Virus record (IMG/VR): IMGVR_UViG_3300044630_002611 | Location: 1-21,946 of that record | Source: a virus | Length of the DNA: 21,946 nucleotides | Direction: 5' to 3' (one strand) | Shown: in pieces, positions 219-19,935 of the stretch | Layout of the letters: the number at the start of each line of letters is the position of its first letter | Position numbering within the stretch: the first letter of the stretch is position 1 | The notes under the pieces: generated by a model | The model's input: the letters and a program-made list of their open reading frames with translations, nothing else | What the model was told of the DNA's origin: nothing | Databases searched by the model: none | Position numbers and translations under genes: made by a program

Positions 219-812
219 ATGACTGATAAACGAATGGATGGCGGACAGAACTCGCAAGAGAACCAAATTGCGAGGAAGGCGTATCGTGAGTATTACGATA
301 AGCAGAGTGCTGAAGTTAAAGCAAAGTTACCTGCACCCGAGAGTGGGGATGATGTTACGGGTATGGATGGTCAATGGGTTTTTAGTGTTGACGAAGAGAG
401 AATGGGAAATGATTTTGCGTACAGTGAAAGGATGGATGTAGAAAAAGATAGTGAGCCAGTGGGACGACTTTATACGGAGGATGAGGTACAAGAGGTTATA
501 CGGAGGGTTATAATGGCTATGCAGATGAGTGAGCATCCCGATGTATTGTTTCAAGCGAGGTGTATTTTGATTGCGCTTGGAATTGGGGAGCCGCCGAAGG
601 AGAGTGAGTTGGCGCGAATTAAGGGTTGTTCTAGACAATTTGTTTCAAAGAAGGTTAAGCGTATACAAGCATTATTTAATTTGACACCTTCTCAATTTAT
701 GCGTTCTAATGAGGCTTGCAAGGCATACTCAAAGGCGTACTGGGAAAAGCGCCAGCGCAGTGCGCGGCGCAAAAATAACTTTAATATGAAAAAGGATAAC
801 AACAATGAGTGA
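219..812 (+). CDS. Helix-turn-helix DNA-binding protein of unknown role
   Basis: The gene encodes 197 residues. The N-terminal two thirds are hydrophilic and not recognised. The C-terminal third contains a clear helix-turn-helix resembling sigma-70 region 4 or a LuxR-type recognition domain (ESELARIKGCSRQFVSKKVKR), followed by a basic tail rich in Lys, Arg and Asn. I chose the ATG at 219 because the longer reading frame from 150 adds a hydrophobic stretch unlike the rest of the protein. Neither start has a Shine-Dalgarno sequence. The gene overlaps the small terminase gene by 8 bases, implying translational coupling. It could be a transcription regulator of the late genes or an accessory packaging protein. 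The DNA-binding call is fairly secure; the role is inference. Confidence 0.7.
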   Translation: MTDKRMDGGQNSQENQIARKAYREYYDKQSAEVKAKLPAPESGDDVTGMDGQWVFSVDEERMGNDFAYSERMDVEKDSEPVGRLYTEDEVQEVIRRVIMAMQMSEHPDVLFQARCILIALGIGEPPKESELARIKGCSRQFVSKKVKRIQALFNLTPSQFMRSNEACKAYSKAYWEKRQRSARRKNNFNMKKDNNNE

Positions 813-1581
813 TGGCGAAAACCAAGGTCCGAAGTTGGCAGACATTGCTGATGCACTTGGCGTGTCTAGACCTCGTGTGACTCAACTTGTGGCAGAGGGG
901 ATGCCGACTGATTCCATTGAAGCAGCGAAGGCATGGCGTGCTTCTCGCAAGAGGGCTAACGAACGAGCAGGTCACATTGCTGTTCCGATTAAGCCAATTG
1001 ACGTTGCTGGTTTAGATAATATTTTAAACTCTCTCCACGGGGAGGGTACTGCTCAGACGCAAGACACGGAGATGGACAATCGGATTGCGCAGCAGATTGA
1101 ATTGTGCAGACTTACCAGAGAGTCATTCATGGGGTCTGTTCAATCTGGAGACCCAAGTCAGACAAAGTTGTATGGCAACTTTGACAGGGCTATTGCAACA
1201 TTGATGCGTATGGAAAAAGAAAGAGCAATTAGATTACAGGAGATGGGAAGATTGGTTGATGCGGATGAAGCGGCTTCACGGTACGGAAAGATTCTTGGTC
1301 AGATACGCACGCTCCTTGAGCGCGCTGAACTTACAGTTGCTCCATCTGCTAACCCAGACAATCCAGCCAGAGCGTTGATTGCGTTTAGAGAATTTAGAGA
1401 TGACTTGTTTAGAAAGATTTCTGAGTATGCGCCACAGGTAGTTTCTCAAGCAGTTAAAACAGAATTGTCGGCTGAAGTTAAACCAATGGATGAAGATGAT
1501 GCGCCAGCGAGCGACGACGATGAAGATGGTCCAAAGGAGATGGGGGACTGGGAGTCACCACCAGAGGATGAATCTAAATGA
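805..1581 (+). CDS. terS: Terminase small subunit, Nu1-like
   Basis: The protein has 258 residues. Residues about 10-50 form a winged-helix-type domain (KLADIADALGVSRPRV) followed by an AAKAWRASRKRA segment, the pattern of the lambda Nu1 DNA-binding domain that recognises the packaging site. The middle is helical and probably drives oligomerisation. The C-terminus is strongly acidic (Asp-rich, residues about 225-258) and in this family usually contacts the large subunit. The gene overlaps its upstream neighbour by 8 bases and the large terminase by 4 bases (ATGA). A weak purine-rich stretch (AAGGA) precedes the start. Direct context with a GpA-type large subunit makes the assignment good, although it rests on the helix-turn-helix and position rather than on full-length similarity. 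Confidence 0.82.
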   Translation: MSDGENQGPKLADIADALGVSRPRVTQLVAEGMPTDSIEAAKAWRASRKRANERAGHIAVPIKPIDVAGLDNILNSLHGEGTAQTQDTEMDNRIAQQIELCRLTRESFMGSVQSGDPSQTKLYGNFDRAIATLMRMEKERAIRLQEMGRLVDADEAASRYGKILGQIRTLLERAELTVAPSANPDNPARALIAFREFRDDLFRKISEYAPQVVSQAVKTELSAEVKPMDEDDAPASDDDEDGPKEMGDWESPPEDESK

Positions 1582-3431
1582 GTTCTGAACTATCTCCCAT
1601 AGATAGATTTGAAAAGAAACTGAGAGGGGTCTTTCAGCCAGATGACGGTGGAGATATTGTTACATGGTTGCGCGATAATATTAAACAGATTCCGTTCTCT
1701 CCAATGCCAGCAGGGTTTAACCCAGAGGAAACTCCGTGGCTCAAAGAGCCACTGCGTGCCATTGCTAATGATGAATTTAGATTGGTTCAAATCATTGCAC
1801 CAATTCAGTCTGGTAAGTCTTTGATGGCTGAGTTGTTGTCGTGCTACATTCTTTCACGGGTTCCTGCTCCGACTTTATATTTACACGACACGGATGATAA
1901 CGCTATCAACTGGGTTCAGACACGACTCAAGGTTCTTTGGGAAAATTGTCCGCCAGTGCGTGAGAAGATTGGCGAGGCTGTTTTAAAAGGTAAGGTTCAG
2001 TCATTCCAAACAAACGGTATTTCGTTCTGGTGTCTTGGTGCTTTCAATCCAAAGAATCTACAAGGTCGTTCGATTAGATGGTTGGTGGGTGACGAGACTT
2101 GGCTTTGGAAGAAGGGTCACATTGCCGAAGCACTTGCTCGTGTGACTTCATTCGGCTGGCTCGGCAAGGCGGTGTTTATGTCACAGGGTTCTTTCCAAGG
2201 TGACGAGACTCATGAACTCTGGGAGACTACAACGAAGAGTGAGTGGTGGTTCTCTTGTCCGCATTGTGCGCACAAGCAGCCTTGGTCTTGGAGTCAGATT
2301 AAATTCCCTCAAGATTGCAAACTCCCAGATGGTGATTGGGATTACGTTAAGATTAGAAACGGTGTTGTCTTTGAGTGCGAAGGTTGCCGATATCACTTTA
2401 AGGATTCCCGTGCGTCCAGAATGGAAATGAACGCAAAAGGATTTTACCACAGAAGAAACCAAAACTGCTCTGATGAGAATCAAGGGTATCAATGGAACGC
2501 GCTGTGCGCTAGAAACTGGGGTAAGATTATTGAAGGTCGCCTCCGTGCAGAAGTAATCAAAGAGGTTACTGGAGATACTAAGCCGATGTCACAGTGGGTT
2601 ATGAAGCAGATGGGTGATTTCTGGGCAGATGTACCAGACGAATACGATATTAACCAAGTGATTGGGGATTACAGGATGAACGATGAGTGGGAGGATGAGT
2701 ACCTCATCGACCCCAATACCAAGCGGTTGCATAATGACCCATCCATTGTTGGGAGCATCAAGGCAAGGTTCATGACCGTTGATGTTCAAAGAAACGGGTT
2801 TTACTGCTTAGTTCGTATGTGGGGTCCAGAATTCCAATCTAGATTGTACAAGTGGCGTTTTATTGAGGGTGAACTGAACTGGCATGATATCAAGTCCTTC
2901 CAGACGGCTTGTGGCGTACAAGACTCCCTTGTCTTCCTTGACTGCGGTGACAGATACGAAGATGTCATTAGACAGTGCGGTCTTAACGGCTGGACGGCTT
3001 TAAAGGGCGACCAGAGGGTCGACTTCATCTGGAGGGTCCAAACGGCACAGGGAGTCCGCAGCATAGCAAAGACATACGCTCCAGCAAAGATGGTTAACGT
3101 CGGCTCTGGCGTAGTCAGAGTCCATCACTTCTCAAATTTAGGTTTAAAAGACCAACTCTTCCGCTTGCGTAAGATTAGAAAGCATACCATTCCAAACGAC
3201 GTTGGTCGTGACTATCTGGAACAAATGGAGTCGGAAGTCCGTGTTCTTGGCAATAGTGGCAAGCCAGAGTGGAGAAAGGTCGGTAAGCGAGCCAATCACT
3301 TATGGGACTGCGAAGTTATGCAGTTAGTACCAGCAATGGCATTTGGGCTATTTACGTCTACTGGACAAGAACTCAACACTGCTCCGTCGGTTGAAAGCGA
3401 AGGTACAGATAAAACAAATATATTTGATTGA
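1578..3431 (+). CDS. terL: Terminase large subunit, GpA family (packaging ATPase and nuclease)
   Basis: The protein has 617 residues, the normal size for the lambda gpA family. It powers DNA translocation into the prohead and cuts the concatemer. The Walker A motif is APIQSGKS at residues 74-81 and Walker B is LVGDET at about 169-174. A Cys-x2-Cys pair at 227/230 and a second at 267/270 form the zinc-binding insertion seen in this family. The nuclease domain follows from about residue 395, with candidate metal ligands Asp402 (MTVDV), Asp455 (FLDCGD) and Asp577 (NHLWDCE). The start overlaps terS by 4 bases with an AGAGG sequence upstream. All signature motifs are intact, so the enzyme should be active. 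This is the most secure call in the window. Confidence 0.97.
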   Translation: MSSELSPIDRFEKKLRGVFQPDDGGDIVTWLRDNIKQIPFSPMPAGFNPEETPWLKEPLRAIANDEFRLVQIIAPIQSGKSLMAELLSCYILSRVPAPTLYLHDTDDNAINWVQTRLKVLWENCPPVREKIGEAVLKGKVQSFQTNGISFWCLGAFNPKNLQGRSIRWLVGDETWLWKKGHIAEALARVTSFGWLGKAVFMSQGSFQGDETHELWETTTKSEWWFSCPHCAHKQPWSWSQIKFPQDCKLPDGDWDYVKIRNGVVFECEGCRYHFKDSRASRMEMNAKGFYHRRNQNCSDENQGYQWNALCARNWGKIIEGRLRAEVIKEVTGDTKPMSQWVMKQMGDFWADVPDEYDINQVIGDYRMNDEWEDEYLIDPNTKRLHNDPSIVGSIKARFMTVDVQRNGFYCLVRMWGPEFQSRLYKWRFIEGELNWHDIKSFQTACGVQDSLVFLDCGDRYEDVIRQCGLNGWTALKGDQRVDFIWRVQTAQGVRSIAKTYAPAKMVNVGSGVVRVHHFSNLGLKDQLFRLRKIRKHTIPNDVGRDYLEQMESEVRVLGNSGKPEWRKVGKRANHLWDCEVMQLVPAMAFGLFTSTGQELNTAPSVESEGTDKTNIFD

Positions 3432-3484: not shown

Positions 3485-3557
3485 GAGATTGGATGGGTGG
3501 GCATGTCGAGTAATCGCTGCCACGGGAGTGGTCCCATCATAGCGCCCGTCCAGTCTC
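3485..3557 (+). ncRNA. Candidate structured RNA between terminase and head genes
   Basis: The intergenic DNA folds into a 15-bp uninterrupted stem: 3485-3499 pairs with 3543-3557. Three of the 15 pairs are G-U wobbles, which favours RNA over a DNA palindrome. The 43 bases inside can form two hairpins with GNRA-type tetraloops: CGA-GTAA-TCG at 3507-3516 and GCCAC-GGGA-GTGGT at 3519-3532. The bases ATG at 3503-3505 can pair with CAT at 3538-3540, giving a three-way junction. No thymine run follows, so a simple terminator is unlikely. It is not a tRNA, since there is no T-arm consensus or anticodon loop. It could be a cis-regulatory leader, a processing site or a packaging-related RNA; function is unknown. 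Confidence 0.5.
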
Positions 3558-3566
3558 TCCTTTCCG

Positions 3567-3572
3567 TTGACA
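3567..3572 (+). promoter_or_regulatory. TTGACA element upstream of the gpW-position gene
   Basis: GTTGACA lies 13 bases before the ATG at 3586. It matches the recurrent hexamer seen upstream of many genes here. The spacing is much shorter than in the other cases, and no -10 element is visible, so this copy is the least convincing as a promoter. Confidence 0.25.
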
Positions 3573-3585
3573 TAGAACCAATCAC

Positions 3586-3828
3586 ATGGCAACTGGAATA
3601 TTTGTCGGTATAGATAAAAACACTATTCTAAGAATACAGGCTCGGGCTATTGAGTTTTTTTTAGAGGGCAAGACGACTATGTCGTACGCAGATGCTGGCA
3701 CTTCTGTAAGTAAACAATTCAGTATGCCACCAGACCAAGTGCTTGACGAATGCAACTACGCATTAAGAAGGATTGACGGGCGCGTGAGAGGTCTTTACAC
3801 AAACTACAACCGAATCGTTGACCGCTGA
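3586..3828 (+). CDS. Small head protein in the gpW (head-tail joining) position
   Basis: The protein has 80 residues and lies exactly between the large terminase and the portal, where lambda carries gpW. The sequence is not obviously homologous to gpW. It looks like two or three helices ending in ALRRIDGRVRGLY, with the segment EGKTTMSYADAGTSVSKQF in the middle. The ATG has no Shine-Dalgarno sequence. The stop overlaps the portal start as TGATG, so the two are translationally coupled. A head-completion or head-tail joining role is inferred from position and size only. Confidence 0.6.
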   Translation: MATGIFVGIDKNTILRIQARAIEFFLEGKTTMSYADAGTSVSKQFSMPPDQVLDECNYALRRIDGRVRGLYTNYNRIVDR

Positions 3829-6499: not shown

Positions 6500-6500
6500 G

Positions 6501-6506
6501 TTGACA
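6501..6506 (+). promoter_or_regulatory. TTGACA element upstream of the polyampholyte gene
   Basis: GTTGACA begins 2 bases after the protease stop and ends 27 bases before the ATG at 6534. A degenerate -10 candidate TCTAAC sits 18 bases downstream, which would place the transcription start at about the ATG. No Shine-Dalgarno sequence is present. Confidence 0.45.
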
Positions 6507-6533
6507 TTCCGAAACTTTAAATCGTCTAACCCA

Positions 6534-8030
6534 ATGTCGAAAGAAACGCCCGAGAACCAACTCCAGTCGGCTATTGCCGCACTAAATGAATTCAAAGCAC
6601 TTGCTGAAAGCCTTACGGCTAAGGCTGGCGCAACGCCATCTCAGCCATCGGCTGAAGATAAGATTGAGTCCGCTCTCGCATCTATTGCAGAGCGCATGGC
6701 TGCTTTCGAACAAAAGATTGAGGCACTCGCTGCCAAGAAGAAAAAGGAAGACGTTGCTGACGAAGAAGTTATTGCTACGGACGAAGAAGAACTCGACGAA
6801 GAAGCAAACGAAATTGGCGGAATCAACAAGACAGTGATTCAGAAAAAGAAACTTAAAAAGAAAAAGGAATTGATGGCGGCTGAAGAAACCGAAGAAGAAA
6901 TTGAAGACGAAGACATGGAAGATGAAGAAGTAGCAAAATCAAAGTCCTCTAAGAAGAAGGCTGCTGAACCTGTTGATGAAGAAGAAACAGACGAAGAAAG
7001 TGCTGCTCCACAAAAAGGTAAGATTCCTCCCCAGTTCCTTAAGAACATTAAAAAGAAGAAGGCTGCTGACGAAGAAGGCGAAGACGAAACTGAAATGGAA
7101 GACGATGCTGCCGAAGATGATACTTATGCAGCCAAGAAGTCCGTGAAGAAGAAAGCCAAGAAAGCATCTGAAGCAGAAGACGGCGAAGCCGCTGACAAAG
7201 AAGAGCAAGACATGGAAGAAGAAGAAATGGCAAAAGGTAAGTCTTCCAAGAAGAAGGCTGCTGAACCCATTGACGAAGAAGTCGAAGACGAAGAAGTCGT
7301 AGAAGACGAAGCAAAAGTTAAGTCTTCCAAAAAGAAGGCTGCTGAAACCGTCGAAGACGAAGAAGAAATCGTTGACGAAGAAGTCATCGAAGACGAAGAA
7401 GCAAAGGTCAAAACCTCAAAGAAGGTTGCCGCTGAACCAGTCGACGAAGAACTCGAAGACGAAGACATGGAAGACGAAGAAGAAGTAGCAAAAACTTCTA
7501 AGAAGAAAAAAGTCGCCAAAGAACAACTTGTAGATGAAGAACTCAAAAAGAAAACAAAGAGCAAAAAGAACTCCGCTGAAGAAGTCGCGGCAGCCCCTGT
7601 TGCTGAAACAGTTGAATCAAATCTTGCTGCAACTCTGGAACAAGCAATTGTTACCAAGGCTCAAGAAACTGCTTCCGTTCTGACGGAAGTTGATGCACTC
7701 AAGTCTAAGTTCGCAGACGAAGTAAAGGCTCGCGAAGAAGCACTTGCTCAAGTCGGAAGAATTAAAGCAGAGTTCGATTCCTTGATGGACAGAATCACAA
7801 GAGTCGAGTTAGAGAGCAAAGCATCAGATGCCAAGGTTGCGCGCACCGTCGCTCAACTTGGAGTTGAACCAGTCGCATCTTCTGCCGCAGTTTCTGACGA
7901 CAGACCCAAGTCCGCAGAAGATATCATGTCTGAGTACATGTCCATCTCCGATGCCCGCGAACAACGCGAGTTCTACCTCAAGCATTCGGCTACAATCCGT
8001 AACCACACTTGGGGAACAAAGAAGGCTTGA
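6534..8030 (+). CDS. Lys/Glu-rich repetitive polyampholyte, candidate scaffold or internal head protein
   Basis: The protein has 498 residues. Residues about 5-70 are predicted helical and probably coiled-coil. Residues about 70-350 alternate blocks of Glu/Asp with blocks of Lys, with recurrent SSKKKAAEP-type units. Residues about 360-440 form a second likely coiled coil. The end contains SAEDIMSEYMSISDAREQREFYLKHSATIRN. I chose the ATG at 6534 rather than an upstream TTG at 6501 because that TTG is part of the recurrent TTGACA element. It occupies the lambda scaffold position between protease and coat genes, so a scaffold substrate of the S49 protease is the leading guess. The Lys/Ala/Pro units resemble histone H1-like tails, so DNA or capsid-wall binding is an alternative. 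No membrane segment or enzyme motif is seen. Confidence 0.8.
   Translation: MSKETPENQLQSAIAALNEFKALAESLTAKAGATPSQPSAEDKIESALASIAERMAAFEQKIEALAAKKKKEDVADEEVIATDEEELDEEANEIGGINKTVIQKKKLKKKKELMAAEETEEEIEDEDMEDEEVAKSKSSKKKAAEPVDEEETDEESAAPQKGKIPPQFLKNIKKKKAADEEGEDETEMEDDAAEDDTYAAKKSVKKKAKKASEAEDGEAADKEEQDMEEEEMAKGKSSKKKAAEPIDEEVEDEEVVEDEAKVKSSKKKAAETVEDEEEIVDEEVIEDEEAKVKTSKKVAAEPVDEELEDEDMEDEEEVAKTSKKKKVAKEQLVDEELKKKTKSKKNSAEEVAAAPVAETVESNLAATLEQAIVTKAQETASVLTEVDALKSKFADEVKAREEALAQVGRIKAEFDSLMDRITRVELESKASDAKVARTVAQLGVEPVASSAAVSDDRPKSAEDIMSEYMSISDAREQREFYLKHSATIRNHTWGTKKA
6924..7550 (+). repeat. Degenerate in-frame repeats coding Lys blocks between acidic blocks
   Basis: Five diverged copies of a unit of the type AKxKSSKKKAAEPVDEE begin near 6936, 7233, 7314, 7404 and 7491 (residues 135, 234, 261, 291 and 320). 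Each is followed by 10-25 acidic residues. Spacing is irregular (about 27-30 residues for the last copies), suggesting growth by unequal recombination followed by divergence. The simple GAAGAAGAC-type composition also creates long spurious serine-rich frames on the other strand. Confidence 0.8.
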
Positions 8031-8032
8031 CA
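8027..8032 (+). promoter_or_regulatory. TTGACA element overlapping a hairpin, upstream of the Gly/Arg-rich gene
   Basis: The hexamer contains the TGA stop of the preceding gene and ends 29 bases before the ATG at 8062. A hairpin GACACCC-ATTC-GGGTGTC (8029-8046) overlaps it; no thymine run follows, so it is at most a weak terminator. TCTGAT, 17 bases downstream, is a degenerate -10 candidate. Confidence 0.4.
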
Positions 8033-8061
8033 CCCATTCGGGTGTCCCTTCTGATTAGCCC

Positions 8062-8391
8062 ATGTTAAAGCCAAGGGCGGATTCGGTTGTTAGAACAGGA
8101 TTGTCTGGCGTACAGGCAAGGACCAACGTCGTTAAAAATAAGTTTGGCGACAAGAAGCGTGTAAGAAGAAGCGCAGACTACGCACCAGAGAATCGTGGTG
8201 CTGAAGACCGCTTAGATACAAGAGAAGGGCCAAGAGAAGGCGGAAGAACTGGTGGCAACAAGCAGTACATCAAAGGTGGCGGTTCCCAGTCTGGTAAGGG
8301 CGGCGGAAGCGGAAGACTGTACCAATACCGTGAACGTGGCAAGGGTGGTCGTAGCACGAGAGATAAGGACCAAGGCGGTCCAAAGAGATGA
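8062..8391 (+). CDS. Small basic Gly/Arg-rich protein, probable head component
   Basis: The protein has 109 residues with about 28 Lys/Arg against about 12 Asp/Glu. The second half is Gly/Arg/Lys-rich (GGGSQSGKGGGSGRLYQY) and probably disordered, like nucleic-acid-binding tails. The first residues, MLKPRAD, resemble the start of the next gene product (MFKSRAD). No known domain is recognised. The position between protease and coat genes suggests a virion-internal or assembly role, possibly neutralising packaged DNA or contacting the acidic blocks of the upstream protein. The gene stands alone behind its own TTGACA element and has no Shine-Dalgarno sequence. Real coding is supported by its isolated, well-placed frame, but function is unknown. 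Confidence 0.65.
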   Translation: MLKPRADSVVRTGLSGVQARTNVVKNKFGDKKRVRRSADYAPENRGAEDRLDTREGPREGGRTGGNKQYIKGGGSQSGKGGGSGRLYQYRERGKGGRSTRDKDQGGPKR

Positions 8392-8433
8392 TATCTATTG
8401 GGTACTCAATCTCTGTAAAAATTACAGTAGGTG

Positions 8434-8439
8434 TTGACA
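8434..8439 (+). promoter_or_regulatory. TTGACA element next to a perfect palindrome
   Basis: GTTGACA ends 43 bases before the ATG at 8483. It abuts the 14-base palindrome AATCGTTAACGATT (8439-8452), which may be an operator or a weak hairpin followed by five thymines. A second small hairpin, CTGTAA-AAA-TTACAG (8413-8427), lies just upstream. The candidate -10 is TAGTTT with a 16-base spacer. Confidence 0.4.
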
Positions 8440-8482
8440 ATCGTTAACGATTAACTAGTTTTTAATAAACCAATTATATATC

Positions 8483-8962
8483 ATGTTTAAATCACGCGCA
8501 GACGAATCACCCAAAGCAGGAACCGTTTCGAAAGAATCGAAAAAGTCATCCAACAATCTTGATAGAGCCATTGCAAAGGCTGCAAAGGCTGGAAAGAAAC
8601 TTACTGACTCCGCAATCATTAGAATTGGCTTTAAGGGTGCAAAACAAATCACTAGCCTCTTTTCACCCAGAGGCTCAAAGGGAAAAGTCACAGCAAGAGG
8701 AATTAGTGGTAAGGTTGGTAGCAAAGCCGACACAAATCTATCGTTGCAGAAGATTCAAAAATGGACTCCAGCAGCCGCTGGCGCAGCCCTTGCACGCTTT
8801 GAAAGCAAGAGTGGGAAACAGTTGCTTAAGTCTGTTGGAAACAGGACTGGTGCGAACGGAAAGAAGTTTGTCAGCGCAGTTATGGCTGGTCTGCGGAAAC
8901 GTGCGGCTGGTAAGAACGTTGCAAAACTCCCCAAGTCAACTCGTCCGACTAAGAAGAAATAA
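8483..8962 (+). CDS. Very basic Lys-rich protein, probable internal head protein
   Basis: The protein has 159 residues with about 39 Lys/Arg and only about 7 Asp/Glu. It begins MFKSRADESPKAG, similar to MLKPRAD at the start of the preceding gene product. Ala/Lys helices (DRAIAKAAKAGKKL) are followed by a Gly/Lys/Ser-rich middle and a C-terminus ending in TRPTKKK. This composition is typical of DNA-condensing proteins, but no family is recognised. It lies just before the coat gene and has its own TTGACA element upstream and a strong intrinsic terminator downstream, so it is probably transcribed as a single gene. A virion-internal DNA-binding role is inference from charge and position. Confidence 0.75.
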   Translation: MFKSRADESPKAGTVSKESKKSSNNLDRAIAKAAKAGKKLTDSAIIRIGFKGAKQITSLFSPRGSKGKVTARGISGKVGSKADTNLSLQKIQKWTPAAAGAALARFESKSGKQLLKSVGNRTGANGKKFVSAVMAGLRKRAAGKNVAKLPKSTRPTKKK

Positions 8963-8984
8963 TCTTAATAAGATTGTTAAAATT

Positions 8985-9009
8985 GAGGCTCCAAAGGGAG
9001 CCTCTTTTT
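8985..9009 (+). terminator. Intrinsic terminator before the coat gene
   Basis: An 8-bp perfect stem GAGGCTCC/GGAGCCTC with loop AAAG (8985-9004) is followed by five thymines. It ends the 8483-8962 transcript and insulates the coat gene. A smaller AATCTT/AAGATT hairpin (8961-8975) precedes it. Confidence 0.85.
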
Positions 9010-9017
9010 ATGCTTGG

Positions 9018-9023
9018 TTGACA
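9018..9023 (+). promoter_or_regulatory. TTGACA element upstream of the major capsid gene
   Basis: GTTGACA lies 8 bases after the terminator T-run and 28 bases before the ATG at 9052. CATATT with a 19-base spacer is a weak -10 candidate. There is no Shine-Dalgarno sequence, so a leaderless or very short-leader mRNA is implied. Confidence 0.5.
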
Positions 9024-9051
9024 AACTGGCATTGTCGTAACCCATATTTAA

Positions 9052-9942
9052 ATGTCTAACACAATTGGAGGTATTAACCTCACAGTCATTGCACAGGATG
9101 GTCTCACGACCCTTTTGTCCGAATTCCCTTTAATCAATACCTTTACCACAAACTTTGGTGGAGATATTGCTCAAAAAGGTGAAGCCGTCACCACTCGTAT
9201 TGCATCATCCGTTTCTGCCACCGACATCGGCGCTAACGGTTATGCAGCATCTAACGTAACCTCGACTGCTAAAACAGTCACTCTTAACCAACACAAAGGC
9301 TTTGTGATGGGCTTTGACGACGGTGAAGTCGCCAAGGGCGGTTACGACATGCTCAAGAGAACGTTCCTCGCTCCTGCTGCTCACGCTACCGTGAAAGCAA
9401 TTATGGACGATGTGTTCGCTCTCGTCACTGCTGGTAACTTCGCCAGCGTTGGCTACAACAGCACTGTTGCCGCCTTCGATGCTGACTCAGTTGCTTCGCT
9501 CTCGCAGGTTCTGACTGACGCAAACAACCCACAGGCTGGTCGCACGCTCCTCGTGAAACCATCCCTCTACACTTCACTCGCTAAGGACAACGCTATCCAA
9601 GCCCAATACGCTTCGGGTACCAACGCTCCAGTTACTGAGAACTTGCTGCCACGTATTCACGGCTTCACAGTTCGCCAGTACAGCGACCTCCCTGCAACTG
9701 TTGCCAATCAGAAGGGCATTGCCTGTACACCAGAAGCGATTCTAATCGCAACTCGTCTACCTGCTACCCCTTCGAACTGGTACGGTAACGTTGCTACCGC
9801 AACTGACAAACTGTCTGGTCTCTCGATTCAAGTTCGCGAATGGTATGACGGTAAAGACGGCAAGCAATACATCTCCATGTCCCTCCTCTATGGAGTGGCA
9901 GTTGGTAACGCAAATTGCTTGACCCGCATCATTGCAACATAA
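9052..9942 (+). CDS. Probable major capsid protein (HK97-fold type)
   Basis: The protein has 296 residues, well balanced in composition and markedly more regular than its charged neighbours. It begins SNTIGGINLTVIAQDGL and continues with a β-rich segment (GEAVTTRIASSVSATD). A helical region (APAAHATVKAIMDDVFALV) follows, then RTLLVKPSLYTSLAKD, which resembles the spine-helix and A-domain organisation of phage coat proteins. It ends with a domain containing GLSIQVREWYDGKDGKQYISMSLLYGVA. The size, the position after the protease and scaffold candidate and the dedicated terminator-promoter insulation all fit the most abundant virion protein. I recognise no close subfamily, so the fold is inferred. 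It has its own TTGACA upstream and a strong terminator downstream. Confidence 0.85.
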   Translation: MSNTIGGINLTVIAQDGLTTLLSEFPLINTFTTNFGGDIAQKGEAVTTRIASSVSATDIGANGYAASNVTSTAKTVTLNQHKGFVMGFDDGEVAKGGYDMLKRTFLAPAAHATVKAIMDDVFALVTAGNFASVGYNSTVAAFDADSVASLSQVLTDANNPQAGRTLLVKPSLYTSLAKDNAIQAQYASGTNAPVTENLLPRIHGFTVRQYSDLPATVANQKGIACTPEAILIATRLPATPSNWYGNVATATDKLSGLSIQVREWYDGKDGKQYISMSLLYGVAVGNANCLTRIIAT

Positions 9943-9965
9943 TTGAACCAATAAGGAAAGAAATT

Positions 9966-9993
9966 GACCCACAGAAATGTGGGTCTTTTTTTT
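9966..9993 (+). terminator. Intrinsic terminator after the coat gene
   Basis: An 8-bp perfect stem GACCCACA/TGTGGGTC with a GAAA tetraloop (9966-9985) is followed by eight thymines. It is the strongest terminator in the window. Confidence 0.92.
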
Positions 9994-10010
9994 GCTTAAT
10001 AGTGAACGGG

Positions 10011-10016
10011 TTGACA
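10011..10016 (+). promoter_or_regulatory. TTGACA element upstream of the 64-residue gene
   Basis: GTTGACA ends 26 bases before the ATG at 10043. TAACTT follows after exactly 17 bases and is the best-positioned -10 candidate among these elements. The predicted transcription start is within or just after the first codon. Confidence 0.5.
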
Positions 10017-10042
10017 CCCTTCAAAGTTCGATTTAACTTACA

Positions 10043-10237
10043 ATGGCTAATCCCAAATACTCTATCCTTCTTAAAGTTGCTATCGCCGATGGTGCGATAA
10101 CAGTCGATGATTACACATCTAAAGTATCCGCAGAAGCGGATTACGTTACTGCCGTTAACAGCGGAGACTACGACTACGTAGCGTTGTTACTTGAGCAACT
10201 TCCTTCAAAAGACTACAAACTCCCAACTAATAACTAA
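10043..10237 (+). CDS. Small protein of unknown function following the coat gene
   Basis: The protein has 64 residues, is acidic and has no recognisable motif. Notable stretches are SILLKVAIADGAITVDDY and SGDYDYVALLLEQLPSKDY. It is flanked upstream by the coat terminator and a TTGACA element, and downstream by a hairpin and another TTGACA unit, so it is probably transcribed alone. Small genes directly after the coat gene are often head-decoration or packaging-accessory proteins (lambda has gpFI in a comparable place), but nothing in the sequence identifies this one. Confidence 0.6.
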   Translation: MANPKYSILLKVAIADGAITVDDYTSKVSAEADYVTAVNSGDYDYVALLLEQLPSKDYKLPTNN

Positions 10238-10248
10238 GGGAGTCGAAG

Positions 10249-10268
10249 GTATCCCTCGCAGGGGGTAC
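10249..10268 (+). terminator. Hairpin after the 64-residue gene, possible weak terminator
   Basis: GTATCCCT and GGGGGTAC can pair over 8 positions (two G-U) around a CGCA loop. No thymine run follows, so termination would be weak or factor-dependent. It is followed by a short tandem TACTGGCG/TACTGGAG. Confidence 0.35.
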
Positions 10269-10302
10269 TGGCGTACTGGAGTAATTTAAAGTCAAAATGC
10301 TA

Positions 10303-10308
10303 TTGACA
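10303..10308 (+). promoter_or_regulatory. TTGACA element overlapping a terminator, upstream of the 106-residue gene
   Basis: ATTGACA shares its last base with the stem of the terminator at 10308-10335 and ends 35 bases before the ATG at 10344. TATCTT with a 16-base spacer is a -10 candidate lying in the terminator tail, so promoter and terminator would be physically merged. Confidence 0.4.
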
Positions 10309-10335
10309 GCCCCAGAAATGGGGCTATCTTTTTTT
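10308..10335 (+). terminator. Intrinsic terminator before the 106-residue gene
   Basis: AGCCCCA/TGGGGCT forms a 7-bp stem with a GAAA loop, followed by ATC and seven thymines. It lies between the TTGACA element and the ATG at 10344. Confidence 0.85.
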
Positions 10336-10343
10336 ATACATAT

Positions 10344-10664
10344 ATGTCTAAGTTCACATTCGTAATCGAAATCAAAAATGGCAAACCGCTTGGTACTGCC
10401 TTCACAAAAGAAGACGCAGCAGTTGCTCGTGCAATGTTTGACGACTTGCGCGAAAAGGGCAAAGAGGCTTACTTCTTCCAACACCCACAGCCAGACAAAC
10501 GCTGCAAGTCTACAGAGCAAATGGCTGCATCTCGTGGAACTGAATCAACTGGCGAAGTTGCCCCAGCAGAAACCGCTAAACCGCTTAATGAGTCGGTTGA
10601 CCAAGATATGGAAGTTATCAAGAACAGTAAGTACAAAAAGAATTCAATTGGCGGACTTTCGTAA
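10344..10664 (+). CDS. Small protein of unknown function, head region
   Basis: The protein has 106 residues. The first half looks like a compact α/β unit (SKFTFVIEIKNGKPLGTAF followed by a helix AVARAMFDDLREKGKEAYFF). The second half is polar and low in complexity. No family is recognised. It lies between coat and connector genes and is bounded on both sides by terminator plus TTGACA modules, implying its own expression level. A head-accessory role, comparable in position to the lambda gpFI packaging protein, is a guess. There is no Shine-Dalgarno sequence. Confidence 0.65.
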   Translation: MSKFTFVIEIKNGKPLGTAFTKEDAAVARAMFDDLREKGKEAYFFQHPQPDKRCKSTEQMAASRGTESTGEVAPAETAKPLNESVDQDMEVIKNSKYKKNSIGGLS

Positions 10665-10668
10665 TCCG

Positions 10669-10674
10669 TTGACA
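10669..10674 (+). promoter_or_regulatory. TTGACA element upstream of the gpFII-position gene
   Basis: GTTGACA lies 4 bases after the preceding stop and 38 bases before the ATG at 10713, with the terminator hairpin 10685-10708 in between. No good -10 candidate is seen. Confidence 0.35.
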
Positions 10675-10684
10675 TAACTTAAAT

Positions 10685-10708
10685 GGGGAGCGAAGGCTCC
10701 CCCTTTTT
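10685..10708 (+). terminator. Intrinsic terminator before the connector gene
   Basis: A 7-bp perfect stem GGGGAGC/GCTCCCC with a GAAG loop is followed by one C and five thymines. An in-frame ATG at 10683 at the hairpin base would extend the next gene by 10 residues, but the hairpin makes that start unlikely. Confidence 0.85.
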
Positions 10709-10712
10709 GTTT

Positions 10713-11042
10713 ATGAATGTCTGGCAAGAGATGGAATCAGATGCCCCCGAAATCTTAAAGGAACTCGGAAGGGTGGTCATATACAGAAAGAATCAAGTCC
10801 TCGCAATGGTAGACCCAAATCCGATAGATTCGATAATGACTCAAGGTGGATTTGACAACGATACATCATTTAGAGTTAAGTTCTTTGCAAAGTCTAACTC
10901 TGAACTAATTAGAAACCCTCCATCGCACGGGGAGCAAGTTACCGTATATGGTTCACAGTACACGATAGTTTCTATTACTTACAGACCGCCATCTCCTTGG
11001 ATTGAAACAGTTGTTCAACCAACAGACGGGAACACCCTTTAA
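10713..11042 (+). CDS. Probable head-tail connector (lambda gpFII position)
   Basis: The protein has 109 residues from the chosen ATG, which directly follows the terminator T-run. The sequence starts MNVWQEMESDAPEILKELG and continues with β-strand-rich segments (TSFRVKFFAKSNSELI, GEQVTVYGSQYTIVSITY). A helix followed by a β-barrel matches the general build of gpFII-type connectors. Size and place, after the coat and accessory genes and before the tail-completion genes, agree. No motif proves it. It is followed one base later by the next gene, so the two probably form an operon. Confidence 0.6.
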   Translation: MNVWQEMESDAPEILKELGRVVIYRKNQVLAMVDPNPIDSIMTQGGFDNDTSFRVKFFAKSNSELIRNPPSHGEQVTVYGSQYTIVSITYRPPSPWIETVVQPTDGNTL

Positions 11043-11043
11043 T

Positions 11044-11943
11044 ATGGCTGCGAGTTCCAGTGCGTTCACCTTAAATGGTGCTAACAACCCGTCATCAACA
11101 CCCCAACTTAGCATTGATGAGAAACAGTTATTCAACACGGTCAAGAAGGTAAACATCAAATTAGATATGCTCAGTAAGGAAGTTAAGTTAAACATGTTTG
11201 CAATCATGAGAACTGAGTGGGGGAATCTTGCTGGAGACTTGGTTGCAATAACCCCTCCGTTTGACAAGGGCGGGAGTCTTGGAAAGGGAAGACAGGCGGC
11301 AAAAGAAACAATTAAAGCGGCTTTCGTTCCATTAAGCAGCATACCAATTGGTGCATTGATAAGAGCAAAGAACTGGCGCGCGGTTGATGCTTATGGCTGG
11401 AAGCCCAAAAGTTCAAAGGTTCAGAAACTCTTAGATAAGAGAAACTGGAATGCTTTGGATAACCTCAAGTTTGGAATAACAAAACCGAATCCAGCGGCTG
11501 CTGGTGCCGAACCAATTTCAAAAATTACAAACGCCCATCACAGGACAGTAAGAGACCCACGTACAGGGAAGTGGAATGGAACCAGATACTATGTTGCTGG
11601 AGCCAATGCTCAAGCAAAGATAAACAAGTTTGCAGCAGAAGTATCCCAAAATGTTGGCTTTATGTTAAGCGGATGGGTCTACTGTCACAACGCACTAAAG
11701 GGTAACAGAAAGGTTCCATCTGTAAAAAACTATGGGACTGGCAAGGTTGTTGTAAAACCATTCAAAGGAGGCGGAAGCGCCTCCGTAACAATTATAAACT
11801 CAAAGGGTAACTTTAACGGCTGGCTTGGAAACAAGAAGGGTGCTGAATATCAAGCCCTCATATCCAAGGCACAAAAAAGAATTCAAGAAGAGTTTGACAA
11901 AGCAGCCATCGGTATGGTTAATGAACTCGACTTTAAATCATGA
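11044..11943 (+). CDS. Probable tail-completion protein (gpZ or HK97 gp10-like position)
   Basis: The protein has 299 residues and is basic. An N-terminal helix (SIDEKQLFNTVKKVNIKLDMLSKE) is followed by MRTEWGNLAGDLVAITPPFDKGG. That resembles the LVDTGRLRDS-type opening of HK97 gp10 or lambda gpZ neck proteins. A central loop-rich portion and a C-terminal helix (SKAQKRIQEEFDKA) follow. I chose the ATG at 11044, one base after the upstream stop, over an internal TTG at 11002 that would overlap the connector gene. Its stop overlaps the next start by 4 bases (ATGA). The role is inferred from order: connector, gpZ-like, terminator-like, tube. Confidence 0.6.
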   Translation: MAASSSAFTLNGANNPSSTPQLSIDEKQLFNTVKKVNIKLDMLSKEVKLNMFAIMRTEWGNLAGDLVAITPPFDKGGSLGKGRQAAKETIKAAFVPLSSIPIGALIRAKNWRAVDAYGWKPKSSKVQKLLDKRNWNALDNLKFGITKPNPAAAGAEPISKITNAHHRTVRDPRTGKWNGTRYYVAGANAQAKINKFAAEVSQNVGFMLSGWVYCHNALKGNRKVPSVKNYGTGKVVVKPFKGGGSASVTIINSKGNFNGWLGNKKGAEYQALISKAQKRIQEEFDKAAIGMVNELDFKS

Positions 11944-12365
11944 GCATCCGAAGAGCAGTAGAACTTAATTTTCAAACACGACTTGATAGAGCCTTTAAGG
12001 GTTCTAGATACAAGGTAGTGGGGGGTACTTCTGCGGATGACCGCCCAAGCCCATGCATTATCGTAGTGGCGGGGGAGGCTGACTCGGCACTCCCAGAAAT
12101 GAGCGACTCTCTCGACAACTACATCTGTGACCTCAGTGTTGTCATACTATCTGGCGTGGACGAGGATGGCTTCAACCAGCACAATGACGCAAACGGTATT
12201 GTTTCTTCGGTGTTTTCCAACAGGGAAACGAGGAAGGAATCAATGGTTGAGAAACTTTACATCTACGACGTGGTTAAACTTGGTGTCTCAGAAGACAACA
12301 TCCCAGACCAAAGAAAATTTGGTACGGCTTACAACTTCAAGGTTGTCTTTAACTATTCTGGTTAA
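11940..12365 (+). CDS. Probable tail terminator (lambda gpU position)
   Basis: The protein has 141 residues of mixed α/β pattern. An N-terminal helix (RRAVELNFQTRLDRAF) is followed by alternating strands (CIIVVAGEADSALP, YICDLSVVILSGVD, KLYIYDVVKLGV, AYNFKVVFNYSG), a layout that fits tail-terminator proteins of the gpU type. It begins within the stop of the upstream gene (ATGA). It is the last plus-strand gene before the inverted cassette and is followed immediately by an 8-bp hairpin. The sequence alone does not prove the family. Confidence 0.6.
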   Translation: MSIRRAVELNFQTRLDRAFKGSRYKVVGGTSADDRPSPCIIVVAGEADSALPEMSDSLDNYICDLSVVILSGVDEDGFNQHNDANGIVSSVFSNRETRKESMVEKLYIYDVVKLGVSEDNIPDQRKFGTAYNFKVVFNYSG

Positions 12366-12464
12366 GGAATCCCAAGGGGATTCCCTGCGAACTGTACGCT
12401 AATGTCTAGGAACTGTTTCCAAGTCTCAAGGGAAACTCCTGCAACTGTTGGTTAATGTCTAGGA
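12366..12464 (+). repeat. Two tandem hairpin-plus-microORF units
   Basis: Unit 1 is the perfect hairpin GGAATCCC-AAG-GGGATTCC (12366-12384) followed by 12385-12411. Unit 2 is the hairpin GTTTCC/GGAAAC (12415-12436) followed by 12439-12464. The tails share CTGC, AACTGT and an identical TAATGTCTAGGA, about 22 of 27 positions, at a 54-base period. Each ATG of TAATG opens a tiny frame: 17 residues from 12402 and 8 residues from 12453, the first ending where the second begins. These may be decayed duplication products or a regulatory element. A further small hairpin (12463-12476, followed by TTTA) closes the region. Confidence 0.6.
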
Positions 12465-12536
12465 GTGCATCCACTCTTTAATCATCTACCAAGACTGACA
12501 AGGCACATGCAAGGATTACGATTAGAATTAGAGTGC

Positions 12537-13004
12537 TCATTTTTTCATCTTTTTACAATAGTAAAGAACGCCCTCCGTGCCATCCAAGGCAGACCTGTAT
12601 TTTGAGGTTTTCTCTACGGACATCTTCCCGTGCAAAGGATTCCAGACTACTTCGCCAATTTTAACATAATACTGTATTAGTTTGTCGCTGTTCAGTATTT
12701 TGAATACATAGCGGCAGTAGTTGTTGTTGCCTGTATCGACATAGTAGTCCCCTCCACTAGTCACAGCGATGAACTTAGATAGACCCTTGGCAGCCTCTGG
12801 GATGCCCTGTGAGGGGGTATGGTCGCTCGGGATGGCTATCTTCCTCAGTGAGCCAATGAACTTCATCTGGGACCGATTTAGAGACACCTCTGGGCATTCA
12901 GCCCAAGAGGTTGGACACTTGGTACACGAGTTATAAAGGTCGTATATCAACTCGCTCCTCTTAGCGTCCGCCAGAGTTTTAGTTTTGTTTCTTTTTAAAT
13001 GCAT
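12537..13004 (-). CDS. Unknown protein, last gene of the inverted cassette
   Basis: The protein has 155 residues. It has a basic, lysine-rich N-terminus (HLKRNKTKTLADAKR) and five cysteines, three of them clustered (CTKCPTSWAEC, residues 27-37), which could bind metal or form disulfides. The middle is Gly-rich (VTSGGDYYVDTGNNNYCRYVFK), and the protein ends in a Lys-rich tail. No signal peptide, membrane segment or enzyme motif is evident, and no family is recognised. The start overlaps the upstream gene by 26 bases. It reads against the surrounding tail genes and converges on the gene ending at 12365. Confidence 0.6.
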   Translation of the reverse strand: MHLKRNKTKTLADAKRSELIYDLYNSCTKCPTSWAECPEVSLNRSQMKFIGSLRKIAIPSDHTPSQGIPEAAKGLSKFIAVTSGGDYYVDTGNNNYCRYVFKILNSDKLIQYYVKIGEVVWNPLHGKMSVEKTSKYRSALDGTEGVLYYCKKMKK

Positions 13005-13176
13005 CGTTAATTGATTTTAGTGCGTATTCGGTGATTACATCTCTTAGTTCAGACTCGTTAGATTTAGATTTAACAAGAGCCTTTGACAGTGCTTCGCAAG
13101 CACGAATCAAGTTTTTGTTTTGTTTAACCAAGACCCCAATGCGTGATTCGTCACTCACGGCTGCTTGGGTATCCAA
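12979..13176 (-). CDS. Small helical protein of the inverted cassette
   Basis: The protein has 65 residues and is predicted almost entirely helical (RIGVLVKQNKNLIRACEAL and SELRDVITEYALKSINDAF), probably coiled-coil. It overlaps both neighbours by 26 bases, as expected in a tightly packed operon. It is not recognised. Small helical proteins are found in lysis and moron cassettes, but nothing here is specific. Confidence 0.55.
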   Translation of the reverse strand: MDTQAAVSDESRIGVLVKQNKNLIRACEALSKALVKSKSNESELRDVITEYALKSINDAFKKKQN

Positions 13177-13339
13177 AGTTATCAGACTTTGGTTTTAAAT
13201 TTGTATCTGGAGCCTTGGGCGGCAACACCCATCCCATCTCAATAGAGACAAGTCTCATATTCAAGCGCTCGACTATTGAGTAGAGTATTTCAACGCGTTG
13301 CTCAAGCAACGCTATCTTATGCTCGTTCGGGTCAGTCAT
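13151..13339 (-). CDS. Small coiled-coil protein of the inverted cassette
   Basis: The protein has 62 residues from the ATG at 13339. That start lies in an 8-base overlap (ATGACTGA) with the stop of the membrane-protein gene, which supports it over a longer frame beginning at 13450. A heptad-like helix (HKIALLEQRVEILYSIVERL) is followed by a Pro-rich tail (GWVLPPKAPDTNLKP). Function is unknown. A coiled-coil partner of the membrane protein is plausible. Confidence 0.55.
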   Translation of the reverse strand: MTDPNEHKIALLEQRVEILYSIVERLNMRLVSIEMGWVLPPKAPDTNLKPKSDNFGYPSSRE

Positions 13340-13631
13340 TTTCAACGACCTCTTTTCTGTTGCCAAAAAATACTTGAACTTTGTGGTTAAACTCTCTGTC
13401 GAACAGTCCCAAGAAGAAGCAGAACCAAACAAAAACAACTGCGACCACAAGCGGAATGAGCAAACCTGTTTTTCTTAAAAACCAAATAACTCCCTTTGAC
13501 CAAAAAGAAAGGAGTGCAAATGCTATTAAGATTAAACCAGCGTCTGTCCAAACGCTTGGACTTTGTTTCTGTGTAGAAAACATTCCGTCCTCAGTTCGTT
13601 GTTCATCATCGTCGTTGTTATTGTATGCCAT
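13332..13631 (-). CDS. Two-span membrane protein, holin-like in size
   Basis: The protein has 99 residues. Residues 1-28 are polar and acidic (Asn/Asp-rich). Membrane segments lie at about 30-52 (AGLILIAFALLSFW) and 56-77 (LLIPLVVAVVFVWFCFFLGLF), joined by a short Arg/Lys turn, with a charged tail. Size and two-span layout fit a class II holin, but there is no recognisable endolysin or spanin beside it, so an immunity or superinfection-exclusion role is equally possible. It is the first gene of the minus-strand cassette and has its own TTGACA element upstream. Confidence 0.65.
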   Translation of the reverse strand: MAYNNNDDDEQRTEDGMFSTQKQSPSVWTDAGLILIAFALLSFWSKGVIWFLRKTGLLIPLVVAVVFVWFCFFLGLFDREFNHKVQVFFGNRKEVVEND

Positions 13632-13662
13632 AGAACGCCCATTAAATAAGGGTTTGGGCTAT

Positions 13663-13668
13663 TGTCAA
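13663..13668 (-). promoter_or_regulatory. Minus-strand TTGACA element for the inverted cassette
   Basis: On the minus strand, CTTGACA ends 31 bases before the ATG at 13631. TTTAAT (five of six consensus bases) follows with a 16-base spacer, making this the best complete promoter in the window. Confidence 0.6.
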
Positions 13669-13873
13669 GCGATTAAGTGTGCATCAGTTGACACCGACAC
13701 TTTGTTCCATGTTCATTCAGAAGTTTTTACTAAAGGTATCGGTCTTAATCCATAAACTATCAAAGCATCTCCCATCAAGGGTTAAAAAGCACCTCTCTAA
13801 CATTTCATTTAAAATAGCATTTTTTGCAGTAAGTCGTTCTGTTCACAAGAGTTGTGCTTGTTCCAGCAAGCGG

Positions 13874-13879
13874 TTGACA
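13874..13879 (+). promoter_or_regulatory. TTGACA element upstream of the tail tube gene
   Basis: GTTGACA ends 23 bases before the ATG at 13903. TAGAAT (five of six consensus bases) lies after a 14-base spacer, which is unusually short, and 3 bases before the ATG. No Shine-Dalgarno sequence is present. Confidence 0.45.
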
Positions 13880-13902
13880 GGTTGCAAATAACGTAGAATA
13901 AC

Positions 13903-14292
13903 ATGGCAAATCCTCCAACACCAACCACATTCACCCCGTCACCAGTGACGGTTGGCACAATTTTGCACTACGGTCTTGAAGACCTTACAATTACTGGTCT
14001 GTTAGTTGATTCGTATAAGCGCTCTGCAAAGTACGCCAAAGTTGAGGAAATCGAAGGTCAAACTGGTATTGTTGAAGGTATTCGTATGTCCGACTATCGA
14101 GCAGATGTGTCCGTATCTGGAAGAGTCTTAACCGCTACTGCTCCAAACGCTAAGGTCGGAGACATTCTTGCTATCAACGGAGACAACATTTTAATCATGT
14201 CAATTGACCTGTCTGCAAGTTCTTCTGGATTTGCAACAATTGATATGTCTGGAACGTCTTACGAAGGTGTTACTGGCTTAGACCCAGCATAA
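13903..14292 (+). CDS. Probable major tail (tube) protein
   Basis: The protein has 129 residues, Thr/Ser/Gly-rich and β-strand-like throughout (TVGTILHYGLEDLTITGLLVD, YRADVSVSGRVLTATAP, DNILIMSIDLSASSSGFA). The β-rich composition, a dedicated promoter-like element and the place just before the chaperone and tape-measure genes point to the tail tube. At 129 residues it is short for a siphovirus tube protein, so a tail-accessory or capsid-decoration protein is the main alternative. It has no Shine-Dalgarno sequence. Confidence 0.55.
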   Translation: MANPPTPTTFTPSPVTVGTILHYGLEDLTITGLLVDSYKRSAKYAKVEEIEGQTGIVEGIRMSDYRADVSVSGRVLTATAPNAKVGDILAINGDNILIMSIDLSASSSGFATIDMSGTSYEGVTGLDPA

Positions 14293-14297
14293 TCTGA

Positions 14298-19269: not shown

Positions 19270-19935
19270 ATGGTAAATGCAGTAATGTTCACATGCTCAA
19301 GGCATGAAAAGGCTGCGCTGATTGCTGCCGAAGCAGCATCAGCATATTACAATGTCATACTAGCGTTTGATAAAGATGATGTTGCGTTTAAAAGCCCGTA
19401 CAGGTCGGTATCAACAGGATTCAGTAGAAACGGTAATCTTAATGGTTTCGAGGCCGCCAGAGGCATCGCAGACACCTTACTGGCGAACATGGATGGAGAC
19501 TATGTCCTCAAGTTTGACTCTGATACCGTAATAAGGGATAATTCGTTCTTTTACGGGTATGACGCTGCTGGGTTTGCGCACCCATTTGTGCCAACGGCAA
19601 TGCTTGGTTGTTGCTACCATTTATCAAGGCGAGCGCTTGAGTTCTCTATTGAGAGCCTCAAGAAACTTGAATACATGGGAATCAGAGTACAGGGAGAAGA
19701 TGTACTCATAACATCATACGCATCTTCGATGCGTGCAGAAGGCTTTAAACTCAACCTCTTGTCTAACAAGCATATTGGTGTGTGGCATCCAACACTATCC
19801 CCAATTCTAACCTGTAAGATTGGCAACTTTGGCAATTACAGAATTGATGCAAACTGGCATCACGAGTCGGCATTATTGGCTATGAAGCAATACGCAGACA
19901 GCACTATTGACACACGTCAAGTTGTGTCCTCATAA
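19270..19935 (+). CDS. GT-A-like glycosyltransferase encoded among tail genes
   Basis: The protein has 221 residues. The N-terminus MVNAVMFTCSRHEKAALIAA begins like a nucleotide-sugar-binding Rossmann strand. The segment MDGDYVLKFDSDTVI contains a DxD-type metal-binding motif (Asp83-Ser-Asp85) typical of GT-A transferases, and GEDVLIT (142-148) supplies a probable catalytic acidic pair. HIGVWHP further on is compatible with the C-terminal acceptor region. No signal peptide or membrane segment is seen. It starts 2 bases after the upstream stop and precedes the fibre gene, so a sugar modification of the fibre or other virion protein is possible; modification of a host glycan is the alternative. 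The fold call is fairly good; substrate and target are unknown. Confidence 0.65.
   Translation: MVNAVMFTCSRHEKAALIAAEAASAYYNVILAFDKDDVAFKSPYRSVSTGFSRNGNLNGFEAARGIADTLLANMDGDYVLKFDSDTVIRDNSFFYGYDAAGFAHPFVPTAMLGCCYHLSRRALEFSIESLKKLEYMGIRVQGEDVLITSYASSMRAEGFKLNLLSNKHIGVWHPTLSPILTCKIGNFGNYRIDANWHHESALLAMKQYADSTIDTRQVVSS

Follow-up and report, generated by a model that had tools for sequence, protein, structure and literature searches.

TTGACA upstream of late phage genes

We analysed a stretch of viral DNA of 21,946 bases with a GC content of 44% (IMG/VR virus record IMGVR_UViG_3300044630_002611; hereafter the window), and in it a sequence element built around the hexamer TTGACA that recurs upstream of genes. 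The window encodes a tailed-phage head and tail module, with genes for TerS, the terminase large subunit (TerL; 1578..3431, plus strand; phrog_15, E = 2e-52), portal, head protease, a scaffold-like protein, the major capsid protein (9052..9942, plus strand; phrog_283, E = 1.1e-31) and tail proteins. TerL served as the query for finding relatives. Those within bacterial genomes lay mostly on Verrucomicrobiota contigs, and the cultured phage with the best TerL match, the sole cultured relative found, was Verrucomicrobia phage P8625 (23% identity); the hosts of this phage group are therefore probably Verrucomicrobiota. The comparative set comprised 42 related contigs with 1,035 genes, for which relatives were fetched via capsid and TerL and then taken as whole contigs.

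An earlier note on this DNA had described TTGACA at a near-fixed distance before starts that lack a Shine-Dalgarno sequence, and had read the hexamer as the -35 box of leaderless mRNAs. A sequence check confirmed the copies that it named. The count in the whole window (27 vs 19.7 expected) was weak alone; position and strand carried the significance. TTGACA lay 12–45 nucleotides (nt) before 13 of the 24 starts in the window, where unrelated hexamers reached at most 3. Across the 42 contigs, an unbiased hexamer count ranked TTGACA as the top upstream hexamer, with 223 copies against 14.5 expected and 7 for its reverse complement. The signal is therefore real, strand-specific and common to the phage group. 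The absence of Shine-Dalgarno motifs held as well: where the intergenic gap exceeded 30 nt, they preceded 4% of genes versus 4% in the control. The GTG at 17912 does carry one (AAGGAGG), as the note had also said. Host genes seldom shared the signal, with TTGACA within 80 nt of just 6 of 314 sampled Verrucomicrobiota starts, a result that supports its specificity to this phage group.

A near-fixed distance was not borne out. Distances from TTGACA to the start codon were multimodal in the relatives, with modes at 13–16 nt (74 sites, the largest class) and 26–30 nt (50 sites at 27–30 nt), few sites at 17–25 nt, a tail to ~65 nt, none at 4–11 nt and almost none below 12 nt. Distance followed gene family. 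The hexamer preceded the 81-amino-acid gene between TerL and portal in 25/28 orthologs, 13–16 nt before the ATG. For scaffold it was present in 28/28 orthologs, mostly at 26–30 nt, and for capsid in 21/25 orthologs at 28–56 nt. No ortholog of TerS, TerL, tape measure or two other tail genes had it. TTGACA also occurs 52–61 nt upstream of the head protease gene in many relatives (window 5431 and 5461), within the end of the portal gene; these clusters were left out of the promoter count, as they may reflect coding conservation of the portal end.

Geometry of the late element and two classes of site

Late sites aligned on TTGACA shared the pattern (G)GTTGACA-N5-CMA-N4-YR. The YR step kept a constant spacing of 13 nt from the end of TTGACA, whereas the ATG lay at a distance that differed by gene family. 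Positions M12, A13, Y18 and A19 were jointly present in 40/60 sites at distances (d) of 12–17 nt and in 15/41 at d = 26–31, compared to 0–5 at other offsets; at d = 13, A19 coincides with the first base of the ATG, which leaves only the remaining positions informative. YR stood at 18/19 in 20/22 scaffold and 16/20 capsid sites despite their unlike ATG distances, and the capsid step was mostly CG or TG, not YA. The first six capsid relatives all had GGTTGACA-N5-CAA (L006, TGGTTGACA). Information was confined to -2 to +19 within the -60 to +45 that we scanned, and we did not see a separate -35 or -10 element in that range. Searching the full contigs for the exact motif gave 66 matches, 53 of them 12–60 nt before a start (~3 expected) and nearly all on the late strand.

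The base before the hexamer divided the sites into two classes. GTTGACA sites (n = 148) lay nearly all on the late strand, and GTTGACA itself was found 59 times on late strands versus once on early strands. The core of the element was present in 90/148 of this class, and a -10 hexamer, [TC]ATA[AC]T, followed at N15–18 in 2/148. CTTGACA sites (n = 64) had the core in 7/64 and A23 in 69%; the same -10 hexamer was found in 10/64, at N16 in eight and N17 in two. The early arms carried TTGACA-N16-(C/T)ATAMT. The CTTGACA sites thus look like ordinary sigma70 promoters, with TTGACA and a -10 at N16–17.

From the geometry of the late class we infer that GTTGACA-N5-CMA-N4-YR is probably a compact phage late promoter of tailed Verrucomicrobiota phages, with its start at R19. 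Bacterial starts usually prefer YR at -1/+1. Transcription would begin at the purine of the YR step, 13 nt beyond TTGACA, a spacing not known from ordinary bacterial promoters; TTGACA would then span -19 to -14 and CMA -8 to -6. An element abutting the gene would yield a leaderless mRNA or one with a 1–3 nt leader, and an element further away a G-poor leader of 10–40 nt without a Shine-Dalgarno sequence. The host RNA polymerase would most likely be redirected by a phage specificity factor, for which the first candidate is a conserved helix-turn-helix (HTH) protein encoded just before TerS.

If the 5' end lies at R19, the distances turn into leader lengths of 0–3 nt, few in between, and then at least 13 nt, which translation could tolerate. 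Such gaps in the distance distribution would arise if no 5' end could lie beyond the ATG and leaders of 4–12 nt were avoided. G made up 5% of the leader downstream of R19 versus 17% of the element spacers (p = 1e-5), and 14–17% in motif-free genes. The corresponding stretch before genes of the leaderless class was not G-poor (13–15%). Several elements, often those of capsid genes, lay directly after intrinsic terminators.

Predicted starts in the window

The best leaderless case in the window is the gene starting at 3586 (plus strand), which is of the 81-amino-acid type between TerL and portal. Its element, G-TTGACA-tagaa-CCA-atca-CA (3566..3586, plus strand; TTGACA at 3567), matches 6/6 downstream positions, and the predicted +1 at 3586 is the A of the ATG (leader 0). 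Judged by geometry, a leaderless mRNA is more likely for this gene, which was absent from the earlier note's list, than for the listed genes at 6534, 9052, 10043 and 13903.

Four of the seven genes on that list (6534, 9052, 10043 and 13903) do carry the conserved element. Their mRNAs are more likely to have leaders of 10–15 nt, because YR is fixed 13 nt after TTGACA at differing ATG distances and no -10 box is present. The element of the scaffold-like gene (6534-8030) lies at 6500..6520 (plus strand) with A13 present and YR changed to AA; the predicted +1 is ~6520 and the leader ~14 nt. The capsid gene is preceded by GG-TTGACA-aactg-GCA-ttgt-CG (9017..9037, plus strand; predicted +1 at 9037, leader 15 nt), and an intrinsic terminator (8985..9009, plus strand) ends 8 nt before this element. 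Upstream of the 64-amino-acid gene at 10043-10237, an element at 10010..10030 (plus strand) matches 6/6 positions, with TTGACA in 3/3 orthologs, a predicted +1 at 10030 and a leader of 13 nt; here too an intrinsic terminator lies upstream (9966..9993, plus strand). The element of the gene at 13903-14292 (13873..13893, plus strand) also matches 6/6 positions, with TTGACA in 3/9 orthologs, a predicted +1 at 13893 and a leader of 10 nt.

The other three listed genes fared differently. The copies before 8062 (TTGACA at 8027, where a 7-bp stem begins inside the hexamer) and 14332 (TTGACT at 14297, not conserved, TTGACA in 0/10 orthologs) were unsupported. The gene at 13631 on the minus strand has a sigma70-type site of the CTTGACA class, CTTGACA-N16-TTTAAT followed by 9 nt to the ATG (13641..13669, minus strand). 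Two further TTGACA copies were likewise unsupported, one running into a terminator stem (10303) and one followed by a terminator (10669).

Elements off the list precede two more genes. The tail-fibre gene at 19953 has one with A at -1 (19907..19926, plus strand; 6/6 positions, TTGACA in 5/6 orthologs, predicted +1 at 19926, leader 27 nt). A compact-type element at 8433..8453 (plus strand) scores 5/6 before the gene at 8483-8962 (predicted +1 ~8453, leader ~30 nt); this gene is the single member of its family, and its element is hence without comparative support.

Three neighbouring features were observed. The scaffold-like protein has a long repetitive middle that is highly acidic and lysine-rich (EDE/KKK), and its orthologs range from ~330 to 600 amino acids. 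The inverted cassette (12537-13631, minus strand) places at least two small genes inside the late region under their own sigma70-type promoter; a family search with its proteins gave no match. Between TerL and the 81-amino-acid gene, the window (3485-3557, plus strand) can form a strong hairpin of the RNA type whose tip is branched (z = -3.2); an Rfam search gave no match for it. Four relatives (L008, L042, L044 and L047) have a 62–74 nt hairpin in the corresponding position; its closing stem of 12–15 bp differs strongly in sequence and is of a kind that occurs in ~1% of random windows. The hairpin and its counterparts may represent a structured RNA that is conserved next to the packaging genes.

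Alternative readings and a candidate factor

The alternative closest to the earlier note takes TTGACA for the -35 box of an ordinary sigma70 promoter and places the start ~28–30 nt further on, at the ATG or next to it. In its favour, the hexamer equals the -35 consensus exactly, CTTGACA sites of the clade have N16 followed by [CT]ATA[AC]T, and four late cases in the window lie at 26–29 nt. At four genes of phage P8625 TTGACA stands exactly 30 nt before the ATG, and three of these also have a TAT-box at N17, as a leaderless sigma70 promoter would. Sigma70-type sites with a short or no leader thus exist in these phages, mainly in the CTTGACA class, and in P8625. For the late sites, however, we consider the -35 reading unlikely. 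Their largest class lies 13–16 nt from the start codon (74 sites). A start ~30 nt after TTGACA would fall 12–17 nt inside the 81-amino-acid genes and remove conserved N-termini, and the reading therefore fails for this class. A -10 hexamer 16–18 nt downstream was found in 2/148 late sites compared to 10/64 CTTGACA sites, and the conserved A13 and the YR at 18/19 would go unexplained. The late element thus shares the hexamer of TTGACA-N17-TATAAT but has no -10, and its proposed start is 13 rather than ~30 nt downstream. At 5412, 10736 and 15558 of P8625 (L128) we also observed an operator- or hairpin-like inverted repeat of the GTATCC...GGATAC type between TTGACA and the start.

Endonuclease processing, in which late RNA would be cut 13 nt after UUGACA to give leaderless or short-leader mRNAs, appears quite unlikely. 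It would account for the same distance distribution and for the fixed YR, and a small hairpin can fold at some sites. Many RNases readily cut YA steps, but the capsid step is mostly CG or TG. Several elements also stand directly after intrinsic terminators, where a new start is needed rather than a cut. It is very unlikely that the element instead serves a phage regulator as a binding site in RNA or DNA, whether for translational control or as an operator: start-linked repeats on one strand have precedent in mycobacteriophages (start-associated sequences, PMC3203893; stoperators) and a subset of sites has stem-loops, but the distance to the start ranges over 13–56 nt while the internal geometry stays the same, and the G-poor leader begins only downstream of R19.

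For the proposed late promoter, the candidate reader is the HTH protein (222..812, plus strand), which has homologs in the clade. Its recognition helix, CSRQFVSKKVKRIQ, was invariant in full-motif phages and altered in more distant relatives, a co-occurrence confounded by shared ancestry. One relative (L106; sites at 4193, 7086, 8577 and 10340) offers a natural test of the helix-motif pairing: its element is nearly invariant, TTTGACA-N3-GGCAAATAGTATG at three genes, and its recognition helix deviates (VNRANISYRVKRIQ). The earlier note had allowed for a phage-modified polymerase or an extra factor. An extra phage factor is plausible; a gene for a polymerase or a true sigma factor was not found on contigs that may be incomplete. 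We saw no sigma region 2 in the predicted fold of the HTH protein or in family scans, and matches to PF04545 proved to be the HTH of TerS. No single-subunit RNA polymerase (PF00940) was found in 16 contigs, in a search run without a positive control on contigs that may be incomplete.

Several observations weigh against a late promoter read by this protein. The likeness of the HTH protein to sigma region 4 is weak (TIGR02937 in 5/25 members, best E = 6.6e-4; NF041236 in one member, E = 6.9e-5, the best value obtained). Sigma factors are the nearest matches to its predicted fold but fall short of significance (Foldseek E ≥ 0.14), and because all Foldseek E-values are above 0.1 the likeness serves as a lead only. 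Neither a phage RNA polymerase nor a true sigma factor turned up in the searches, although the contigs may be incomplete. Terminators upstream of core sites were just modestly enriched (16/92 vs 20/300). A small stem-loop of at least 5 pairs lies between TTGACA and ATG in a subset of d = 13–16 sites (8 vs 2 expected), which hints at a role at the RNA level. In the most distant relatives TTGACA is retained at 12–16 nt, but A13 is not. Start codons in the relatives were called by a simple in-house script, and sites were selected by exact TTGACA with no tolerance for hexamer variants. We rejected the stem-loop as a universal feature of the element, as it is confined to a subset. The stems at the relatives' class A sites are of unrelated sequence (e.g. 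CGTGC-caaaa-GCACG and CTTGG-ctaaac-CCAAG).

We compared the late element with known systems. Promoters of T7-type single-subunit RNA polymerases are likewise compact, with contacts from ~-17 to the start and a GGG start; here the predicted start is A or G, and no PF00940 protein was found in the 16 contigs searched. The L5-type stoperator is a conserved 13-mer (reverse complement CTTGACAKCCACC), and we rejected membership in that group, since the five bases after TTGACA hold almost no information. The start-associated sequences of cluster K mycobacteriophages (PMC3203893) are also one-orientation repeats tied to the starts of certain gene families. They differ in sequence, whereas the late element has a variable start distance, fixed internal geometry and no Shine-Dalgarno sequence, and membership was again rejected. 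Late (nvRNAP) promoters of phage AR9 read AACA-(6N)-T(A/G), with the last base as the start (PMC5312081). They resemble the element in having a short upstream block, a fixed spacer and a YR start a few bases from late genes. The consensus is different, however, and AR9 encodes multisubunit RNA polymerases, of which none was found here; the family was absent from the scanned G004 proteins. Promoters of the phiEco32 sigma factor gp36 consist of the single element tAATGTAtA with a start 6–8 bp downstream (PMC8948821). They too are compact and lack a -35 box, initiate ~6 bp beyond the final conserved block and use the host core polymerase with a phage factor. Their sequence differs; here TTGACA lies within the element, and a sigma region 2 protein was not found. 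In leaderless genes of Deinococcus-Thermus, a -10 (TANNNT-type) element adjoins the open reading frame (PMC12340547), a similar arrangement of promoter and leaderless mRNA in which TTGACA-N5-CMA takes no part. Literature searches turned up no description of the motif.

The motif is mainly restricted to the clade, given 16 exact matches with ATG outside it in IMG/VR versus 9 in the ACG control. In distant Verrucomicrobiota phages and prophages, TTGACA lay 12–16 nt before the start in 25/39 upstream cases. In a set of 195 Verrucomicrobiota genomes the strict full motif showed no clear enrichment (~50 vs 33 in the control). A looser pattern, TTGACA-N12–16-ATG, exceeded the control in some host genomes, not near sampled gene starts.

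A more specific proposal, which we offer tentatively, is an initiation system not described before. In it a phage protein resembling sigma region 4, or an unrecognised polymerase, would read TTGACA at -19 and start transcription 13 nt downstream. The position of the element would then set whether an mRNA is leaderless (the low-copy connector) or has a G-poor leader (scaffold and capsid). Even an exact TTGACA is not necessarily a -35 box: two classes of site occur in one genome, and the preceding base (G or C) and the downstream sequence distinguish them. Knowledge of how Verrucomicrobiota phages express their genes is minimal. The late element would provide a concrete late promoter for a whole uncultured group and a route to predicting its late transcription units. 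It may also form a natural series, in which one element yields leaderless or leadered mRNA by position alone.

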